From the NCBI RefSeq assembly GCF_016598775.1, contig NZ_CP066802.1, positions 1,178,001 through 1,242,000 on the forward strand: 64,000 nucleotides of DNA, written 5' to 3'. A program made the position numbers and the translations under genes. Positions 4,116-23,058 of the stretch are shown one piece after another. A model generated the notes under the pieces. That model ran no database searches. It was not told the DNA's origin and saw nothing but the letters and a program-made list of their open reading frames with translations. The stretch is from Actinomyces weissii. Its GTDB lineage: Bacteria > Actinomycetota > Actinomycetes > Actinomycetales > Actinomycetaceae. The number at the start of each line of letters is the position of its first letter. Within the stretch, counting starts at the first letter, position 1.

Positions 4116-5774
4116 TCAGGCGCGAGCGGACTGGCGCACCTGCTCCAGCCAGGCACGGCGCGCGGTCAGGGCCGCCTCCGCCTCCGCGATCTTCTTGGTG
4201 TTGCCAGCGGCCTGGGCGGCGGCCAGGTCCTTCTCCAGGCCGGCGATGGAGTCCTCCAGCTGTCCGGCCAGCCCCTCCGCCCGGGCCTTGGTCTCCGGGT
4301 CGGTGCGGCGCCACTCGGCGTTCTCGGCCTCACGGATGGCGTCCTCGACGGCCCGCATCCGGCCCTCGATCCGGCGCACCGCCGCCCGCGGGACCCGGCC
4401 CGCCTCCTCCCAGGCGTCCTGGATGGGGCGCATGGCCTTCTTGGCAGCCTTGACGTCCTTGATGGGCAGCAGGGCCTCCGCCTTGGCGACCAGCGCCTCC
4501 TTGACCTTCAGGTTCTCAGCGAACTCGGCGTCGGTGGCCTCGTCCTTGGCGCGGCGGGCGTCGAAGAACACCTGCTGGGCCGCCCGGAAGCGGGCCCACA
4601 GGGCGTCGTCCTCCTTGCGGGAGGCGCGTCCGGCCTTCTTCCACTCCTCCATCAGGTCGCGGTACCTGGCGGAGGTGGTGCCCCAGTCGGTGGAGGAGGA
4701 GAGCTCCTCGGCCCGGCGGATCAGGGCCTCCTTGGCGGCCTTGACCTGAGCCTGCTTGGAGTCCAGCTCGGAGAAGAACTGGCGGCGGTGGCGGTCAAAG
4801 GTGGTGCGGGCGTGGGAGAAGCGCTTCCACAGGCCGTCCTCAGTGGGGCGGTCCAGGCGCGGTCCACGACGCTGGGCCTCCTTCCAGCGCTCCAGCAGGT
4901 CCCGCAGCTCGGCCCCGGAGGTCTTCCACTGGGTGCGGGCCGGGTCCTGCTCGCTGATGGCCTCCGCCCGCTCGACGATAGCGGTGCGGTCCTTGAGGGC
5001 CTGCTCCTTGGCGGCGGCACGCTCGGCGGAGACCGCCTCCCGGCGCTCAGCGGCGACCTCCCGCAGGGCGGTGAAACGGGCGCGCAGGCCGTCCAGGTCA
5101 CCCACGGCGGCCGGAGCGACCAGGGACTCCTCAATGGACTTCACCGTGGTGTCGATCTCGCGGACGCTCAGCTGCGGCAGGCGGGTGGCGAACAGGTCGA
5201 TGGTGGCCTTCAGGTCCAGGAAGCGGCGCACGTAGAAGGCCAGGGCCTCAGCCACCGGCGCGTCGGGGAACTGCCCGACCTCGCGCTCCTCACCGTTGTC
5301 CTGCACGTAGACCTTGCCCTCACCGTCCACCCGGCCCCACTTGGCGGCCGCCATGGCCTCCTCCGGGTCGATGGCGGGCTCCACCGGGGTCGGCACGGCG
5401 CTGGGGGTAGGCACCGGGGCCTTCTCGCCGGCGGGGGCAGCGGGCTGCGCGGCCTCGGCGTCTGCGGCAGCCGGGGCGCTGGGGCCGTCAGCCGACTCTG
5501 GCGCCAGCGGCTCCTGCACGGCGGTCGGGCCGGTGGGAGGCTCCTGTGGAGCGGCGTCGGAAGGAGCGGGGGCGGGCGCCTCAGCGGCTGGCTCCGTGGC
5601 GGGTTCACCAGCGGGGGACTGGTCTGCGGCGTCTGGGGTGCTTACCGGCTCCGCGGCCTGTGCCGTGGGCTCCGGGCTGGTCTGCTCGGTCAGGGTGTCC
5701 GTGGGGGTGGTGGTGCTGGCTGCGTCCTCATTGAGGGTACGAGCCTCAGGGGTGTGCTGCGACTGCTCAGACAC
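4116..5774 (-). CDS. DUF349 repeat protein
   Basis: The 552-residue product begins with about 130 residues rich in Ala, Pro, Glu, Thr and Ser that look disordered, followed by a long, highly charged helical region with repeated units of the DUF349 type (for example TQWKTSGAELRDLLERWKEAQ, STDWGTTSARYRDLMEEWKKA and IQDAWEEAGRVP). These helical repeats occur in bacterial proteins of poorly known function. The start is a GTG at 5772-5774 with a good Shine-Dalgarno (AAGGAG) 6 nt upstream on the minus strand. No signal peptide or membrane segment is seen. The location beside rel is common in Actinobacteria but gives no specific role. Confidence 0.85.
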   Translation of the reverse strand: MSEQSQHTPEARTLNEDAASTTTPTDTLTEQTSPEPTAQAAEPVSTPDAADQSPAGEPATEPAAEAPAPAPSDAAPQEPPTGPTAVQEPLAPESADGPSAPAAADAEAAQPAAPAGEKAPVPTPSAVPTPVEPAIDPEEAMAAAKWGRVDGEGKVYVQDNGEEREVGQFPDAPVAEALAFYVRRFLDLKATIDLFATRLPQLSVREIDTTVKSIEESLVAPAAVGDLDGLRARFTALREVAAERREAVSAERAAAKEQALKDRTAIVERAEAISEQDPARTQWKTSGAELRDLLERWKEAQRRGPRLDRPTEDGLWKRFSHARTTFDRHRRQFFSELDSKQAQVKAAKEALIRRAEELSSSTDWGTTSARYRDLMEEWKKAGRASRKEDDALWARFRAAQQVFFDARRAKDEATDAEFAENLKVKEALVAKAEALLPIKDVKAAKKAMRPIQDAWEEAGRVPRAAVRRIEGRMRAVEDAIREAENAEWRRTDPETKARAEGLAGQLEDSIAGLEKDLAAAQAAGNTKKIAEAEAALTARRAWLEQVRQSARA

Positions 5775-16817: not shown

Positions 16818-16963
16818 GAGGGCTGGCCTTACTGTGCGGGCATTCCGGTAGGGGCCTGCGCGGGCCCGCTCCGGCCGGGGCCCCGGTCCCAGGGACCTGC
16901 CAGGGTGATGCCTTGGTCGACATCAGTTTCATCACAGATAGGGCATAACGGCATTTCGCCGCT

Positions 16964-16969
16964 AGGATG
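16964..16969 (+). promoter_or_regulatory. -10 box upstream of the first surface-protein gene
   Basis: TAGGAT in a locally A+T-richer stretch (16920-16965). The start codon chosen at 17046 would leave a leader of about 70 nt. Confidence 0.4.
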
Positions 16970-17045
16970 TTCGCAGGACGGTGCCGGTGCTACGCGCTCC
17001 CGGACACTGATCTGGCAGATGTACCTGACGAGAACGGTCACCCAT

Positions 17046-18167
17046 ATGCCCAACGGCCAGAGCTACACAGAGGAACTGCGGACGCCGTCGCGACGGCTGC
17101 GCTGTCCGGTGCGGCTTGCTGGCGCCGTGGGCCTGTTCGCTTTTGGTCTACTGGCTAGCGGAGGCGCGGTCGCTGCCCCGGCCGACGCCACCAATGGCTT
17201 TGGCACCCCTGTGGCTACCGTGCTCGCCGGAGACCTGGATCCGGTCGCGGGTGAGGACACGCATACGCCTTCGCAGCTGATCAGCGAGGTCCAGCAAGGT
17301 GATGCAGTCCCGCAGGACCCGGCCCCGCCCACGCAGAGCCAGGCTCCTGGTCGTTCAGAGACGCCCGGCGCTACGACGGAGCCTGCCCCGCAGGACCCGC
17401 CTGGCACCGGCCCGGTGCCTACGCCATCTGTAGAGCCCTCCGCTCCGTCGGCCTCCGGCTCCACGGGTAACCGGCGCGTCCAGGTCATCCCCGGCCGGGA
17501 CGTGGCTGACGCGCCTGGCGGCAGCGGCTCCGGGCAGCAGCCTGTCGCCGTCGAGACGCAACCGCCTGCACCGCAGGAGGCTAGGGCGCAGGACGACTCC
17601 GATGACGAGGCCTCCCGCCCCGTGCGCGCAGGCAACCCAGCGAGCAGCAGCCCCAGCGCCTCCGCTGCCGCCACCAGCACGGACGGGCGGCCCGCCAAGG
17701 CCCCGGTGCCCCCAGTGAGCTCGGCTGAGCAGCTGACCAAGGACAACGCCGGGTCTGTCTCTGGGGGGCGTCAGGGTGACGAGGTTACTCTCTACCTCCC
17801 CTCCTCCGAGGTGAGGCCCAAGGAGTGGGTCTCCGTGTTCACCTACCCGGAGGCCAAGGACTCAGGCTGGCTGGAGGTCAGCGGTGAGCGCTCGGTGGTC
17901 ATCAGTATCAGCGGCATGGAGGCTGGCTCCTACAAGCTGGCGGTGGTCAACAGCGCTGGTGCGTTGCTGGGCTGGGCCCAGCTGGAGATCTCCGAGGAGA
18001 ACCAGGCAGATGAGGGCGGCGCGTTCGCTCCGGTGGTCGGCGCCGCTGAGCCGGACAACGGGATGGGCAGCGGTGACTGGCTGCTGCTTTGCGCCGCCGG
18101 GGTGCTGGTAGCCGGGACTGGTGGTTTCGTGTTCCTCACCCGCCCGCGTGCGGTCGGCGGGCTTTGA
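17046..18167 (+). CDS. Secreted, membrane-anchored surface protein
   Basis: A 373-residue protein starting MPNGQSYTEELRT. A basic patch (RRLRCPVRLAG) and a hydrophobic stretch ending LLASGGAVAAPADA form a signal peptide. About 190 residues rich in Pro, Ser, Thr, Gln and Glu follow and look like a flexible stalk. Then comes a compact beta-rich domain (GDEVTLYLPSSEVRPKEWVS to SYKLAVVNSAGALLGWAQLEI). It ends with one transmembrane helix (WLLLCAAGVLVAGTGGFVFL) and a short tail. There is no LPXTG motif, so it is anchored by the helix, not by sortase. The ATG at 17046 is preferred because it gives a normal signal peptide; in-frame ATGs lie upstream. Ligand and function unknown. Confidence 0.7.
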   Translation: MPNGQSYTEELRTPSRRLRCPVRLAGAVGLFAFGLLASGGAVAAPADATNGFGTPVATVLAGDLDPVAGEDTHTPSQLISEVQQGDAVPQDPAPPTQSQAPGRSETPGATTEPAPQDPPGTGPVPTPSVEPSAPSASGSTGNRRVQVIPGRDVADAPGGSGSGQQPVAVETQPPAPQEARAQDDSDDEASRPVRAGNPASSSPSASAAATSTDGRPAKAPVPPVSSAEQLTKDNAGSVSGGRQGDEVTLYLPSSEVRPKEWVSVFTYPEAKDSGWLEVSGERSVVISISGMEAGSYKLAVVNSAGALLGWAQLEISEENQADEGGAFAPVVGAAEPDNGMGSGDWLLLCAAGVLVAGTGGFVFLTRPRAVGGL

Positions 18168-18182
18168 GGGGAACTGCGCCCG

Positions 18183-18917
18183 ATGCGCTTCATCCGGCAC
18201 CTGGGACCCAGGTGGCTCGACCGGGCGTCTGTGCGAGCCCGCATGACGAGCGGGCTACCGGCGCTGGCCGTGACCGCCCTGTTCTCCCTGCTCGTGGTGG
18301 CCACCTGCCTGCCGGGGCCGCCAGCCCGGGCCCAGGAGCAGGACTCCACCACGGGCACAGCCTCCACCGTGAGCCCCTCCACGGTTGCCAGGGGCGGGAC
18401 CCTGCGCTACACCCTGAGCGGCTTTCCCGTCGGGGCACAGGTGGAGGTGCTGCTTGACGACGTCGACACGCAGGTGCTCACGAACCTGGTGGTCGGCCAG
18501 GACGGCACCGCCTCCGGCACCCTGGAGCTGCCCAAGCTGATCGGGCTGGGTCCGCACTGGCTACGCTTCCGCACCAGGACGGTGGAGGAGGGGCCTGGGC
18601 CAGGGGTGCCGGGAAGCTCCACCGCGCCTCCCGGGGCGGGCCCCGTGAGCAACAAGTCTCCTTTCTTCACGGTGGGTGAGGTCACCGTGATCGGCTCCTC
18701 CGCCGGGCAGCGGAGCCCGGCTGCCAGCGGGCTCCCAGACGCGGCCACGGCGCCACCGGTGCCGGTGGAGGAGCACGGGCCTGGGCTGCCTCTGGCGCTG
18801 CTGCTTGCCGCTGTCCTGCTGTCCGGTGGCGGGGGTCTCGCCGTCGTGCTGCTGCGTCGGCGGCGGACGGCTGCCGGTCCTGAGTCAGGGCGCAGCCCCG
18901 GTGCGGGGGAGCGGTGA
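18183..18917 (+). CDS. Secreted Ig-like protein with C-terminal membrane anchor
   Basis: A 244-residue partner of the previous gene, 15 nt downstream, with ribosome site GAGGGGAA. Order: an N-terminal signal segment (LPALAVTALFSLLVVATCLPGPPARAQ), then one Ig-like unit with the pattern seen in actinobacterial cell-wall proteins (STVARGGTLRYTLSGFPVGAQVEV, DGTASGTLELPKLIGLGPHWL), a Pro/Ser-rich linker, a transmembrane helix (LPLALLLAAVLLSGGGGLAVVLL) and a basic tail (RRRRTAAG). It has the same topology as its neighbour, which suggests a two-part surface complex. No sortase motif was seen. Its role is unknown. Confidence 0.7.
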   Translation: MRFIRHLGPRWLDRASVRARMTSGLPALAVTALFSLLVVATCLPGPPARAQEQDSTTGTASTVSPSTVARGGTLRYTLSGFPVGAQVEVLLDDVDTQVLTNLVVGQDGTASGTLELPKLIGLGPHWLRFRTRTVEEGPGPGVPGSSTAPPGAGPVSNKSPFFTVGEVTVIGSSAGQRSPAASGLPDAATAPPVPVEEHGPGLPLALLLAAVLLSGGGGLAVVLLRRRRTAAGPESGRSPGAGER

Positions 18918-18943: not shown

Positions 18944-19021
18944 CGCCTGCGGTGCCCGCCCGTCTCGCGGTGCGCCCCGCCGGGCACCGGCTCAGTGCCC
19001 CCAAGGGAAGGACACAGCACC

Positions 19022-20806
19022 ATGCTGCGAACCCGTACCGCCGGCTCCCTGCGGGCAGCGGACATCGGCCAGGAAGTAACCCTTACCGGCTGGGTGGACC
19101 GCCGTCGTGACCACGGTGGCGTCGCCTTCATCGACCTGCGTGACGCCTCGGGCATCTCCCAGGTGGTGATCCGGGAGGAGGTCGCCCACGACCTGCGTGC
19201 CGAGTACGTCCTCAAGGTCGTGGGCCAGGTCTGCGCCCGGCCGGAGGGCAACGCCAACCCGAACCTGCCCACCGGAGAGATCGAGGTCGTCGTCTCCGAG
19301 GTGGAGATCCTCAACACCGCCGCCCCCTTGCCCTTCCAGGTCTCTGACCACGCCGAGGACTCCGGGCAGGTGGGGGAGGAGGCGCGCCTGCGGTACCGCT
19401 ACCTGGACCTGCGCCGCTCCAAGATGCAGCACGCGATCCGGCTGCGCTCCCAGGTCTCGCAGGCGGCCCGCAAGGTGCTTGGTGCGCACGACTTCGTGGA
19501 GATCGAGACCCCGACCCTGACCCGCTCCACCCCTGAGGGGGCGCGTGACTTCCTGGTGCCCGCACGCCTGGCCCCCGGCTGCTGGTACGCCCTGCCCCAG
19601 AGCCCCCAGCTGTTCAAGCAGCTGCTCATGGTGGCGGGCATGGAGCGCTACTACCAGATCGCCCGCTGCTACCGTGACGAGGACTTCCGTGCCGACCGGC
19701 AGCCTGAGTTCACCCAGCTCGACATCGAGATGAGCTTCGTGACCCAGGAGGACGTGATCGCGGTGGCCGAGGACGTCCTCAAGGAGGTGTGGGCGCTGAT
19801 CGGCTACGAGCTGGACACGCCGATCCCGCACATCACCTACGCGGAGGCTATGGAGAGGTACGGCTCCGACAAGCCCGACCTGCGTTTCGACCTGCAGCTG
19901 GTGGACCTGACCGAGTACTTCAAGGACACCACCTTCCGGGTGTTCCAGAACCCCTACGTGGGTGCCGTGGTCATGCCCGGCGGCGCCTCCCAGTCCCGCC
20001 GCACCTTTGATGCCTGGCAGGAGTGGGCCAGGCAGCGTGGTGCCAAGGGCCTGGCCTACGTCACCGTCGCTGAGGACGGCGAGCTCGGCGGCCCGGTGGC
20101 CAAGAACATCACCGAGGCGGAGCGCGCGGGCCTGGCCCAGGCTGCCGGCGCCCAGCCCGGCGACTGCATCTTCTTCGCTGCCGGGTCCGTGGACGCCTCC
20201 CGGGCGCTGCTGGGGGCCGCCCGCCTGGAGATCGGCAAGCGCTGCGGGCTCATTGACGAGGACGCCTGGTCCTTCGTGTGGGTGGTGGACGCCCCCCTGT
20301 TCAAGCCCTCGGCGGAGGCCAAGGCCGACGGCGACGTGGCCCTGGGCAAGTCTGCCTGGACGGCGGTGCACCACGCCTTCACCTCGCCCAAGCCGGAGTG
20401 CCTGGACAGCTTTGACACCGACCCCGGAAGCGCCCTGGCCTACGCCTACGACATCGTCTGCAACGGCAACGAGATCGGTGGCGGCTCTATACGTATCCAC
20501 CGCCGGGACGTGCAGGAGCGGGTGTTCAAGGTCATGGGGATCGGCGAGCAGGAGGCGCAGGAGAAGTTCGGCTTCCTGCTGGACGCCTTCAAGTTCGGGG
20601 CCCCGCCCCACGGCGGCATCGCCTTCGGCTGGGACCGGATCGTCTCCCTGCTCACCCGTGCGGACTCCATCCGCGACGTGATCGCCTTCCCCAAGTCCGG
20701 TGGGGGCTTTGACCCGCTGACGGAGGCCCCGGCGCCGATCACCTCGGAGCAGCGCAAGGAGGCCGGTGTGGACGCCAAGCCGGAGGAGACCAAGGCCCAG
20801 GCCTGA
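19022..20806 (+). CDS. aspS: Aspartyl-tRNA synthetase
   Basis: Charges tRNA-Asp (and possibly tRNA-Asn, if Asn-tRNA is made by transamidation; that is not decided here). The 594 residues show the bacterial layout: N-terminal OB-fold anticodon domain ([23 protein letters not shown]), class II motif 2 ([30 protein letters not shown]), the bacterial GAD insertion (about 290-420) and motif 3 ([14 protein letters not shown]). The start at ATG 19022 follows AAGGGAAGG. In-frame codons upstream exist, but the family begins [12 protein letters not shown] hairpin terminator follows. Confidence 0.97.
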
Positions 20807-21467: not shown

Positions 21468-21524
21468 GTGGTCTTCCAGGACGGACCGGGCCAGCAGGAA
21501 GAGACGACAGACATATAAGACGAC

Positions 21525-21554
21525 GGGGTCCGGAACCAGCAGGTTCCGGACCCC
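21525..21554 (-). terminator. Hairpin terminator after the His/Cys-rich gene
   Basis: Perfect 13-bp inverted repeat (21525-21537 with 21542-21554, loop AGCA), 24 nt beyond the stop of the minus-strand gene. A T-rich stretch follows on the minus strand. Confidence 0.75.
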
Positions 21555-21578
21555 GGAGGTTCTCAGAGGAGCTGAGAC

Positions 21579-21899
21579 TCAGGCGGCGTGCGTGCAGGTC
21601 TGGCAGCTGCAGTCTGCGCAGCTGCAGGAGGAGCAGCTGTCCTCGCAGTGCTCGCAGGAGCAGACGTTGTGGTTGCAGGTCGGGCAGCTGCAGTCCACGC
21701 AGTCGCACACGGCGCAGGCGTCCGTGCAGTGGGCGCACTGGCAGGTGTCGCACTCGTCGTAGTGGCCGTTGTCCTCGTGGTGGGCGTGGCCGTCGTGGAT
21801 GTAGTCCACGTGGTTGCCGTGGATGACGGCCAGGTGCCCGCAGTCGGGGCCGTGGGTGTGGCTGTGGGCCTCAGCGGGACGGTGCGTGGTGGTGCTCAT
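21579..21899 (-). CDS. Small His-rich protein with metallothionein-like Cys tail
   Basis: A 106-residue protein with 16 His and 20 Cys. The first half (HSHTHGPDCGHLAVIHGNHVDYIHDGHAHH region) matches the short His-rich proteins that actinobacterial Zur controls. Those usually end soon after this block; here about 55 residues of CxC/CxxC clusters follow, including two near-copies of a 14-residue unit, CAVCDCVDCSCPTC and CSSCSCADCSCQTC. This suggests zinc (or copper/cadmium) binding and storage. The start at 21899 has GAGGAG as ribosome site. The A+T-rich upstream region holds three Zur-like boxes and a terminator follows, so it is an independent regulated gene. Metal identity is inference. Confidence 0.8.
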   Translation of the reverse strand: MSTTTHRPAEAHSHTHGPDCGHLAVIHGNHVDYIHDGHAHHEDNGHYDECDTCQCAHCTDACAVCDCVDCSCPTCNHNVCSCEHCEDSCSSCSCADCSCQTCTHAA

Positions 21900-21987
21900 G
21901 TGCTCACTCCTCTGGGTTCCTGCCCCAGTTCGGGGCGGCAGGTGATTCTTTTGAAGAATAGGTGCGAGTATTACTTTTTGGCAAACA

Positions 21988-22002
21988 TGAAAATGTTTCT
22001 CA
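21988..22002. promoter_or_regulatory. Zur-like box 1
   Basis: TGAAAATGTTTCTCA, an imperfect palindrome of the TGAnnAT-nn-TTCTCA type bound by actinobacterial Zur. It is the box nearest the His/Cys-rich gene (start at 21899). Confidence 0.5.
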
Positions 22003-22019
22003 GTGCTGCGAAGAATGCA

Positions 22020-22034
22020 TGAATATCATTCTCG
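22020..22034. promoter_or_regulatory. Zur-like box 2
   Basis: TGAATATCATTCTCG, the same pattern as box 1, 32 bp further on (about three helical turns). Confidence 0.5.
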
Positions 22035-22054: not shown

Positions 22055-22069
22055 TGATAATCGTTCTGT
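22055..22069. promoter_or_regulatory. Zur-like box 3
   Basis: TGATAATCGTTCTGT, the same pattern, 35 bp beyond box 2. It is the last A+T-rich stretch before normal G+C-rich sequence resumes. Confidence 0.45.
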
Positions 22070-22440: not shown

Positions 22441-23058
22441 ATGTCACGCTACCTGGAGATCCACCCGGACAACCCGCAACCTCGTCTTGTTGAGAAGGTG
22501 GTGACCGCCCTGCGCGACGGCGGACTGATCGCCTACCCCACCGACTCCGGCTACGCCCTGGCCTGCGCACCGGGCAACAAGTCCGGCCTGGACCGTATCC
22601 GGGCCATCCGCCAGCTCTCGGACAAGCACGACTTCACCTACGTCTGCGCGGACTTCGGGCAGGTCGGCCCGATCGCTATCGTGGGCAACAACGCCTTCCG
22701 GCTCATCAAGCGCCTGACCCCCGGCCCCTGGACCTTCATCCTCAAGGGCACCAAGGAGGTGCCGCGCATGAGCCTGAACCCCAAGAAGCACACCCTGGGG
22801 GTGCGCATCCCCCAGCACACCATCAGCCAGGCCCTGCTGGCCGGCTTCGGGGGGCCGATCCTCTCCTCCACCTTCCTGCGCCCTGGCGACGAGCAGCCGC
22901 AGACCAGCGGCTGGGAGATCGAGGACTCCCTGGGGCACCTGATCGACGTCGTTGTGGAGGGGCCGGTGACCTCCACCGAGCCCACGACCGTGGTGGACCT
23001 GACCGCGGACCTGCCGGAGGTCGTGCGCCAAGGGGCGGGGGACGTCGGCCTGCTCTAG
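22441..23058 (+). CDS. yciO: YciO-type Sua5/YrdC-family protein
   Basis: A 205-residue protein of the Sua5/YciO/YrdC fold. It follows the E. coli YciO pattern along its whole length (YLEIHPDNPQPRLVEKVV, GGLIAYPTDSGYALAC, IRQLSDKHDFTYVC, TPGPWTFILKGTKEVPR, TLGVRIPQHTISQALL, PTTVVDLT) rather than the TsaC/Sua5 pattern. TsaC/Sua5 makes threonylcarbamoyl-AMP for the t6A37 tRNA modification. YciO members bind RNA and nucleotides, but their physiological job is less certain, so this gene should not be taken as the essential t6A synthase. The length equals that of YciO. It stands alone, with its own promoter and a terminator-like hairpin after it. Confidence 0.9.
   Translation: MSRYLEIHPDNPQPRLVEKVVTALRDGGLIAYPTDSGYALACAPGNKSGLDRIRAIRQLSDKHDFTYVCADFGQVGPIAIVGNNAFRLIKRLTPGPWTFILKGTKEVPRMSLNPKKHTLGVRIPQHTISQALLAGFGGPILSSTFLRPGDEQPQTSGWEIEDSLGHLIDVVVEGPVTSTEPTTVVDLTADLPEVVRQGAGDVGLL

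Follow-up and report, generated by a model that had tools for sequence, protein, structure and literature searches.

A His/Cys-Rich, Metallothionein-Like Protein of Actinomyces and the Possible Exchange of Its Metal Sensor from SmtB Type to Zur

Introduction

What is a protein of 106 residues, rich in both histidine and cysteine, good for, and which metal sensor decides when it is made? Its gene lies in a 64,000-nucleotide stretch of DNA from Actinomyces weissii (the window, by which we mean the whole of that stretch). To our knowledge, few bacterial metallothionein families are recognized beyond those of cyanobacteria, pseudomonads, and mycobacteria. In cyanobacteria, regulators of the SmtB/ArsR type repress the metallothionein gene and release it when metal is plentiful (PMC8790569).

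The answer toward which the sequences incline us, with moderate confidence in the joint claim, is that this would be a zinc-surplus metallothionein whose SmtB-type control has been replaced by activation through Zur. In most sampled relatives, the gene would be second in an operon, after an SmtB-type ArsR gene, and made at zinc surplus; at ten Actinomyces loci, that of the window among them, ArsR would have been lost, and zinc-loaded Zur would activate from boxes 5' of the predicted -35 element. The response, a larger amount of buffer at high zinc, would have been kept and the sensor exchanged.

Results

The Protein and Its Gene

The preliminary description gave the protein 16 His and 20 Cys, which is the exact count, and divided it into a His block and a metallothionein-like Cys tail, a division that the alignments and the Cys spacing uphold (Table 1). 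Cys50 comes directly after the His block. With 2 Tyr and neither Trp nor Phe, the protein is small, Cys-rich, built of CxC and CxxC clusters, and poor in aromatics, all traits of the metallothionein-like class. The duplicated unit had been taken to be 14 residues long; the true repeat is 27 residues (53-79 and 80-106), of which that stretch is a part, and each copy has its 9 Cys spaced 1-2-3-2-1-2-1-2 with a single His past the last. The codons of residues 52-78 and 79-105 are identical at 57 of 81 nucleotides. The 9-Cys set of the mammalian beta domain holds about three divalent ions, and each 9-Cys module here could hold one zinc-thiolate cluster. Metal binding, and zinc as the metal, we infer; the His module and the two 9-Cys modules together would make an intracellular metallothionein-like zinc buffer, which we regard, on the sequence, as very probable.

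Is this a chance ORF? It is a real gene, because relatives occur in 77 of 200 sampled Actinomycetaceae genomes and as 27 proteins of a large protein set. An ORF of 144 aa lies opposite it (21588-22022, + strand). The dN/dS values (0.35-0.67 in five pairs) indicate moderate constraint only, and AlphaFold2 gave no confident fold for the 106 residues (mean pLDDT 50.5; the model was left unused). The hairpin past the stop codon has an MFE of -40.1 and a z-score of -7.1, and none of 200 shuffles of the 72-nt stretch folded as low. A second hairpin, in the 5' leader, looked conserved by eye and was rejected, with z-scores from -1.93 to +0.70 across 10 leaders.

Table 1. Features at the His/Cys locus, in window coordinates
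Feature	Position	Strand	Basis or remark
His/Cys protein gene, 106 aa	21579..21899	-	ATG at 21899, stop TGA 21579-21581
His-rich module, residues 1-49	21753..21899	-	alignments, His positions
Cys unit 1, residues 53-79, 9 Cys	21663..21743	-	Cys spacing
Cys unit 2, residues 80-106, 9 Cys	21582..21662	-	Cys spacing, same as in unit 1
Ribosome-binding site AGGAG	21907..21911	-	7 nt 5' of ATG; read from sequence
Predicted -10 TATTCT	21955..21960	-	TAnnnT here in 9/10 ArsR-less Actinomyces loci; L024 one base off
Predicted -35 TTGCCA	21979..21984	-	18-bp spacer to predicted -10
Proximal Zur-like box TGAGAAACATTTTCA	21988..22002	-	ends 3 nt 5' of predicted -35
Middle Zur-like box CGAGAATGATATTCA	22020..22034	-	score 15.3
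Distal Zur-like box ACAGAACGATTATCA	22055..22069	-	score 14.2
Terminator-like hairpin, 14-bp stem	21524..21555	.	folding; between His/Cys gene and convergent aspS; strand unassigned
aspS-like class II (D, K, N) tRNA synthetase gene	18995..20806	+	Pfam; convergent, marks orthologous locus
Sua5/YciO/YrdC gene	22441..23058	+	Pfam; divergent, marks orthologous locus

Relatives of the Protein

The 77 family genomes (the window's own included; E<=1e-3) comprise 37 that match across the full two-module length, and the window's genus contributes 29 with a match and 8 listed without. Some of the 27 proteins from the large set are fragments or His-only forms, their names, where given, are "hypothetical protein," and their sources include Actinomyces slackii, A. 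vulturis, Mariniluteicoccus flavus, and an Austwickia MAG. A second collection yielded 20 loci, among them those of A. bovis, A. israelii, A. gerencseriae, A. oris, A. naeslundii, and A. johnsonii, and further ones from a Flaviflexus MAG, Aeromicrobium, and Dietzia; several of these genomes are seemingly the same as genomes of the 200-genome sample.

Common as the His block is, the tail with its Cys units is rare. That the block alone is common had been said at the outset, and the phylum sample agrees: of its 396 genomes, 43 have a profile match, which by match range runs through the His block in nearly all. Among 19 further phylum loci that were read, the two-unit form occurs in one (G413) and the one-unit form in one (G238). 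The His half alone as query found 12 proteins, 10 of them already known and two short; the Cys tail alone found no candidate with enough shared words, a result of little weight since the search was length-limited.

The 58 two-unit loci, counting that of the window, encode 42 distinct proteins (P0009, which lacks one Cys, was left outside the set). Among these 42, the Cys skeleton of the window protein recurs in 34, seven others have one spacing change or one extra Cys, and one has four extra Cys (exceptions L045, L047, L048/L096, L049, L050, L051, L095, and L097). Forms of 80-82 aa with one Cys unit (P0013-P0016 and P0019) come, to judge by the source given (ena), from metagenomes, where an assembly may have collapsed the repeat; other one-unit forms stand on a 1-Mb contig (P0022) and in a sampled genome (L182).

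The His block comes single (about 50 aa) or doubled (about 95-100 aa), and in L188 and L197, it is the C-terminal tail of ABC-3 permeases, following the ABC-3 domain. The nearest NCBIfam models of these two are AztB and, lower down, ZnuB, both below cut-off. The tail is the same His block as in the 106-residue protein, but it is without Cys units and belongs to a membrane protein. Its place at the end of these permeases probably explains the transporter labels on free-standing His blocks.

Does the protein belong to a family already described? The preliminary description named none, and profiles, the PDB, and the open-licence literature, among the matches listed, agree. None of 25 aligned members matches Pfam (E<=10) or NCBIfam (E<=1), nor does the 106-residue protein alone, in scans where HMMER filters may hide weak Cys-rich matches. 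In these scans, no member matches the profile of the SmtA/BmtA bacterial metallothionein family (PF02069 in Pfam), and no sequence relation to metallothionein profiles was found. When PDB chains were searched with the profile at E<=10, 3 matches came up, none named metallothionein. Titles and abstract openings of the open-licence papers among the matches listed for bacterial metallothioneins, Zur, and Actinomyces contain no description of such a His/Cys protein.

An SmtB-Type Regulator Upstream in Most Relatives

Of the 37 family-sample genomes that encode the two-module protein, 29 have an ArsR-family gene directly upstream of it, and in five of eight such loci inspected, the two reading frames overlap by 17 bp; at L181, too, there is an ArsR-like ORF upstream. 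All 28 distinct ArsR proteins extracted from 40 loci carry an alpha5 zinc-site motif, DxHx10Hx2[E/H]; the signature is given as DxHx10Hx2E, and the site is present in SmtB and AzuR (PMC8790569). One of these ArsR proteins is above cut-off for the NCBIfam ArsR/SmtB metalloregulator subfamily, and its PDB matches include NmtR, CzrA, and SmtB. A sequence like ATCAA-N4..9-TGATAT, possibly the ArsR operator, stands in 17 of 31 distinct upstream regions. At L047, genes for an ABC ATPase and an ABC-3 permease are followed by the ArsR-His/Cys pair.

The arrangement resembles the cyanobacterial pairs SmtA/SmtB, BmtA/BxmR, and NmtA/AzuR, where an SmtB/ArsR-family regulator governs a metallothionein (PMC8790569). 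There, smtB and smtA are divergent, whereas the ArsR and His/Cys genes here are co-directional and often overlapping. By analogy, since most orthologues stand behind an SmtB-type regulator, the metallothionein-like gene in these relatives, second in an ArsR-led operon, is probably made at zinc surplus.

The window's lineage departs from the cyanobacterial systems in having no ArsR gene, and in its His module and two 9-Cys units. No ArsR gene adjoins the window gene, and none of SmtB type was found elsewhere in the genome at E<=1e-6. Seven ArsR-less genomes gave no ArsR orthologue elsewhere at that threshold; in two, there are matches of 32-38%.

How old is the ArsR state? The Actinomyces loci compared, with and without ArsR, are flanked by the same aspS and/or Sua5 genes, and the rows of an aspS tree from other genera (G020, G049, G073, and G091) are of the ArsR type; for these reasons, ArsR is probably the older state. 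The tree holds 30 genomes (20 with ArsR, 7 without, and 3 without the His/Cys gene). A single loss was rejected, one clade of ArsR-less genomes having p-AU 2e-5; the fewest changes are 4, and the starred branches force 2. Repeated switching or transfer of the locus may lie behind the scattered ArsR-less genomes, in a tree of one gene.

Outside Actinomyces, the ArsR gene is also absent at L050 (about 4870-4960) and at L051 (Dietzia). Upstream of the gene in L050 are an inverted repeat, ACATGCAC-N12-GTGCATGT, and a short ORF that looks like the beginning of an ArsR, a possible ArsR remnant with control in trans.

Zur-Like Boxes at the ArsR-Less Promoters

There are ten ArsR-less Actinomyces loci: the window, L003 (A. 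bovis), L022, L024, L025, L026, L029, L033, L034 (A. israelii), and L035 (A. gerencseriae). We scored their promoters with a Zur matrix trained on 10 boxes. The best ZnuA gene of each of 11 Actinomyces genomes was inspected; 9 genomes supplied the boxes, 2 (G062 and G027) showed none there, and other ZnuA regions (L127-L135) were left out. Since a Zur-like consensus guided the choice of training boxes, the matrix owes nothing to the ArsR-less promoters but does depend on that consensus. Every one of the ten promoters has one to three sites scoring >=12, with best scores of 12.3-22.6 that were reached by 0-10 of 500 dinucleotide shuffles per promoter. Of 26 other loci (23 with ArsR, and L048, L050, and L051 without), L031 alone scored >9, in searches over 650 bp as against 250 bp for the ArsR-less Actinomyces loci; loci whose protein duplicated that of a scored locus were omitted, as were L091-L097. 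The ArsR-less sets outside Actinomyces (L048/L096, L050, and L051) have no Zur box and hence neither switch.

L031 (G049) has both an ArsR gene and, upstream of it, a Zur-like box, TGAAAAGCATTTTCA; unique among the loci scored, it is a possible intermediate state.

Where do the boxes sit? Aligned on the proximal box, nine of the ten loci have in common a stretch similar to CATTTTCATGTTTG: TTG stands at the predicted -35 in eight, TAnnnT follows 18 bp on in all nine, and the box ends 3 nt before the predicted -35. Bringing L024 into line takes a 17-bp spacer and a proximal site that is very weak (5.2); the proximal site is also weak in L022 (11.0), and L029 has a further box (13.6) between the predicted -35 and -10. 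The layout was picked by eye after the sequences were read; a script's free best -35/-10 pair coincides with it in 5 of 10 loci (6 counting the 17-bp version of L024) and differs in L003, L025, L026, and L033. In the 2.56-Mb genome, the pattern TGANAATNNTTNTCA, written after the promoter was seen, matches exactly at the proximal box only. The znuA box is placed otherwise: in eight of the nine genomes with one (the exception is G083), its last base is the A of a candidate ATG, and if the promoter is leaderless or has a short leader, the box would overlie its start.

The window's genome has one Fur-family match, about 2 kb from a ZnuA gene. Its best PDB match is 3mwm (E 3.6e-42), followed by 7vo0 and by 2o03, the FurB zinc uptake regulator. 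The PDB names 3mwm and 7vo0 a putative metal uptake regulation protein, and we take both to be Zur of S. coelicolor. This sole Fur-family match is a Zur homologue, and it has His at the position counted as H36 of ScZur. That residue is required for activation (PMC11077047).

The preliminary description had tied the His block to Zur. For the window promoter, with three Zur-like boxes and a Zur homologue in the genome, the link stands, and we hold it highly likely that Zur acts there through the predicted boxes. For the block in general it does not: among loci with the His block only, scores >=12 occur at 2 of 15 from the family and at 0 of 16 from the phylum sample (two of the 16 are permease tails and hence have no promoter), counts that are to be read with an Actinomyces-specific matrix in mind.

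Discussion

Two known systems show what Zur might do at such a promoter. At zitB of S. coelicolor, the gene of a zinc exporter, Zur is positioned 8 nt upstream of the -35 and acts as an activator, one that depends on further upstream sequence for its full effect (PMC5472717, PMC11077047). The window gene shares a Zur box just 5' of a TTGCC-type -35 and a homologous Zur; it differs in its product and in a gap of 3 rather than 8 nt, and whereas the upstream sites of zitB are described as cryptic (PMC5472717), those of the window score as boxes. In marine Synechococcus sp. WH8102, Zur activates the metallothionein gene bmtA, which PMC9337993 calls unprecedented, SmtB-type repression alone having been reported before. 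There, too, are Zur boxes (two, against one to three here), one of them beyond the -35; the first box at bmtA, however, overlaps the -10 and -35, and activation was measured there and is inferred here. As in these two precedents, we think it probable that Zur activates rather than represses the window promoter. The confidence that we place in the buffer, in the action of Zur, and in activation is not independent from one to the next.

Could Zur instead repress the gene, as at znuA? The protein would then be a product of zinc starvation, either storing or donating zinc inside the cell with high affinity or scavenging wrong metals. A Zur dimer extends past the 15-bp core, so that with a box just 3 nt from the predicted -35, against 8 nt in zitB, it could also repress. 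Repression is the usual mode of Zur (PMC6103462), and the basal expression of marine BmtA at low zinc, from a promoter whose first box overlaps the -10 and -35, is discussed as possible zinc donation (PMC9337993). Against this, the boxes lie 5' of the predicted -35 in nine of ten loci (the extra box of L029 apart), znuA boxes by contrast lie at the start codon, most orthologues are under an SmtB-type regulator, and a thiol-rich sink made in starvation would presumably compete for zinc. We consider repression rather unlikely; with the orthologues mostly behind SmtB-type regulators and the boxes 5' of the -35, the role in zinc limitation implied by the test first suggested is probably the wrong way around.

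Activation by Zur at zinc surplus has also to be set against a protein that handles mainly copper or cadmium/mercury, its zinc regulation being incidental. CxC and CxxC clusters are good ligands of Cu(I) and Cd(II). The SmtB/ArsR family includes Cd/Pb sensors (PMC8790569), and one of these, CmtR, is among the NCBIfam matches below cut-off. Both alternative regulators point to zinc, however, as do the zinc permeases AztB and ZnuB that are nearest, below cut-off, to the His-block permeases of L188 and L197, and as does the ABC-3 permease beside the L047 pair; a main role with the other metals seems to us quite improbable. Nor do we give much for the thought that the palindromes are sites of another regulator, or AT-rich promoter sequence, instead of Zur sites. 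Several bacterial regulators use AT-rich palindromes, and the matrix was built on 10 sites; but the genome has a single Fur-family match, the motif is common to the znuA boxes of related genomes, and shuffles seldom reach the best score, so this reading strikes us as very unlikely.

Would all this amount to a new, unannotated family of actinobacterial metallothioneins, its zinc-surplus sensor exchanged in place, perhaps repeatedly, from the SmtB type to Zur activation at one to three boxes? Taken whole, that statement seems to us evenly poised. If true, Zur control of a metallothionein arose independently in Actinobacteria, with another protein and another promoter layout. The orthologous SmtB-type and Zur-type promoters would be a natural experiment in which a metal sensor was replaced and the response left unchanged, and the ArsR-less promoters, with upstream sites that score as boxes, would provide another compact system, besides zitB, in which to study activation by Zur. 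The protein itself is found in several Actinomyces species, A. oris and A. naeslundii included, and is called hypothetical where it is named at all.

Other Observations

From the other genome-wide Zur-like matches, no coherent regulon emerged. Some matches may deserve a line of their own, with the caution that the ORF lists behind the L047, L065, and L080/L090 neighborhoods are greedy and have antisense ORFs among them. At L065:8473-8493 (G000:C1 about 2286472-2286492, minus strand), TGAGAATGAGATCGACTCTCA lies about 20 bp before an ORF of 1070 aa, possibly another Zur target, which is upstream of an interrupted ZnuA-type gene. At L059:2841-2855 (G000:C1:919340), the box CGAGAACTATTATCA comes just before a methyltransferase-domain gene. 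Two strong Zur-like boxes at L080/L090 (G124:C1:2127709 and 2127977) stand beside a FecCD-family permease gene, the product of which perhaps takes up a metal chelate. In the window itself, two neighboring ORFs at 16905-18917 (+) are, by eye, rich in Ser, Thr, and Pro with a C-terminal hydrophobic stretch, and they look like surface or exported proteins.
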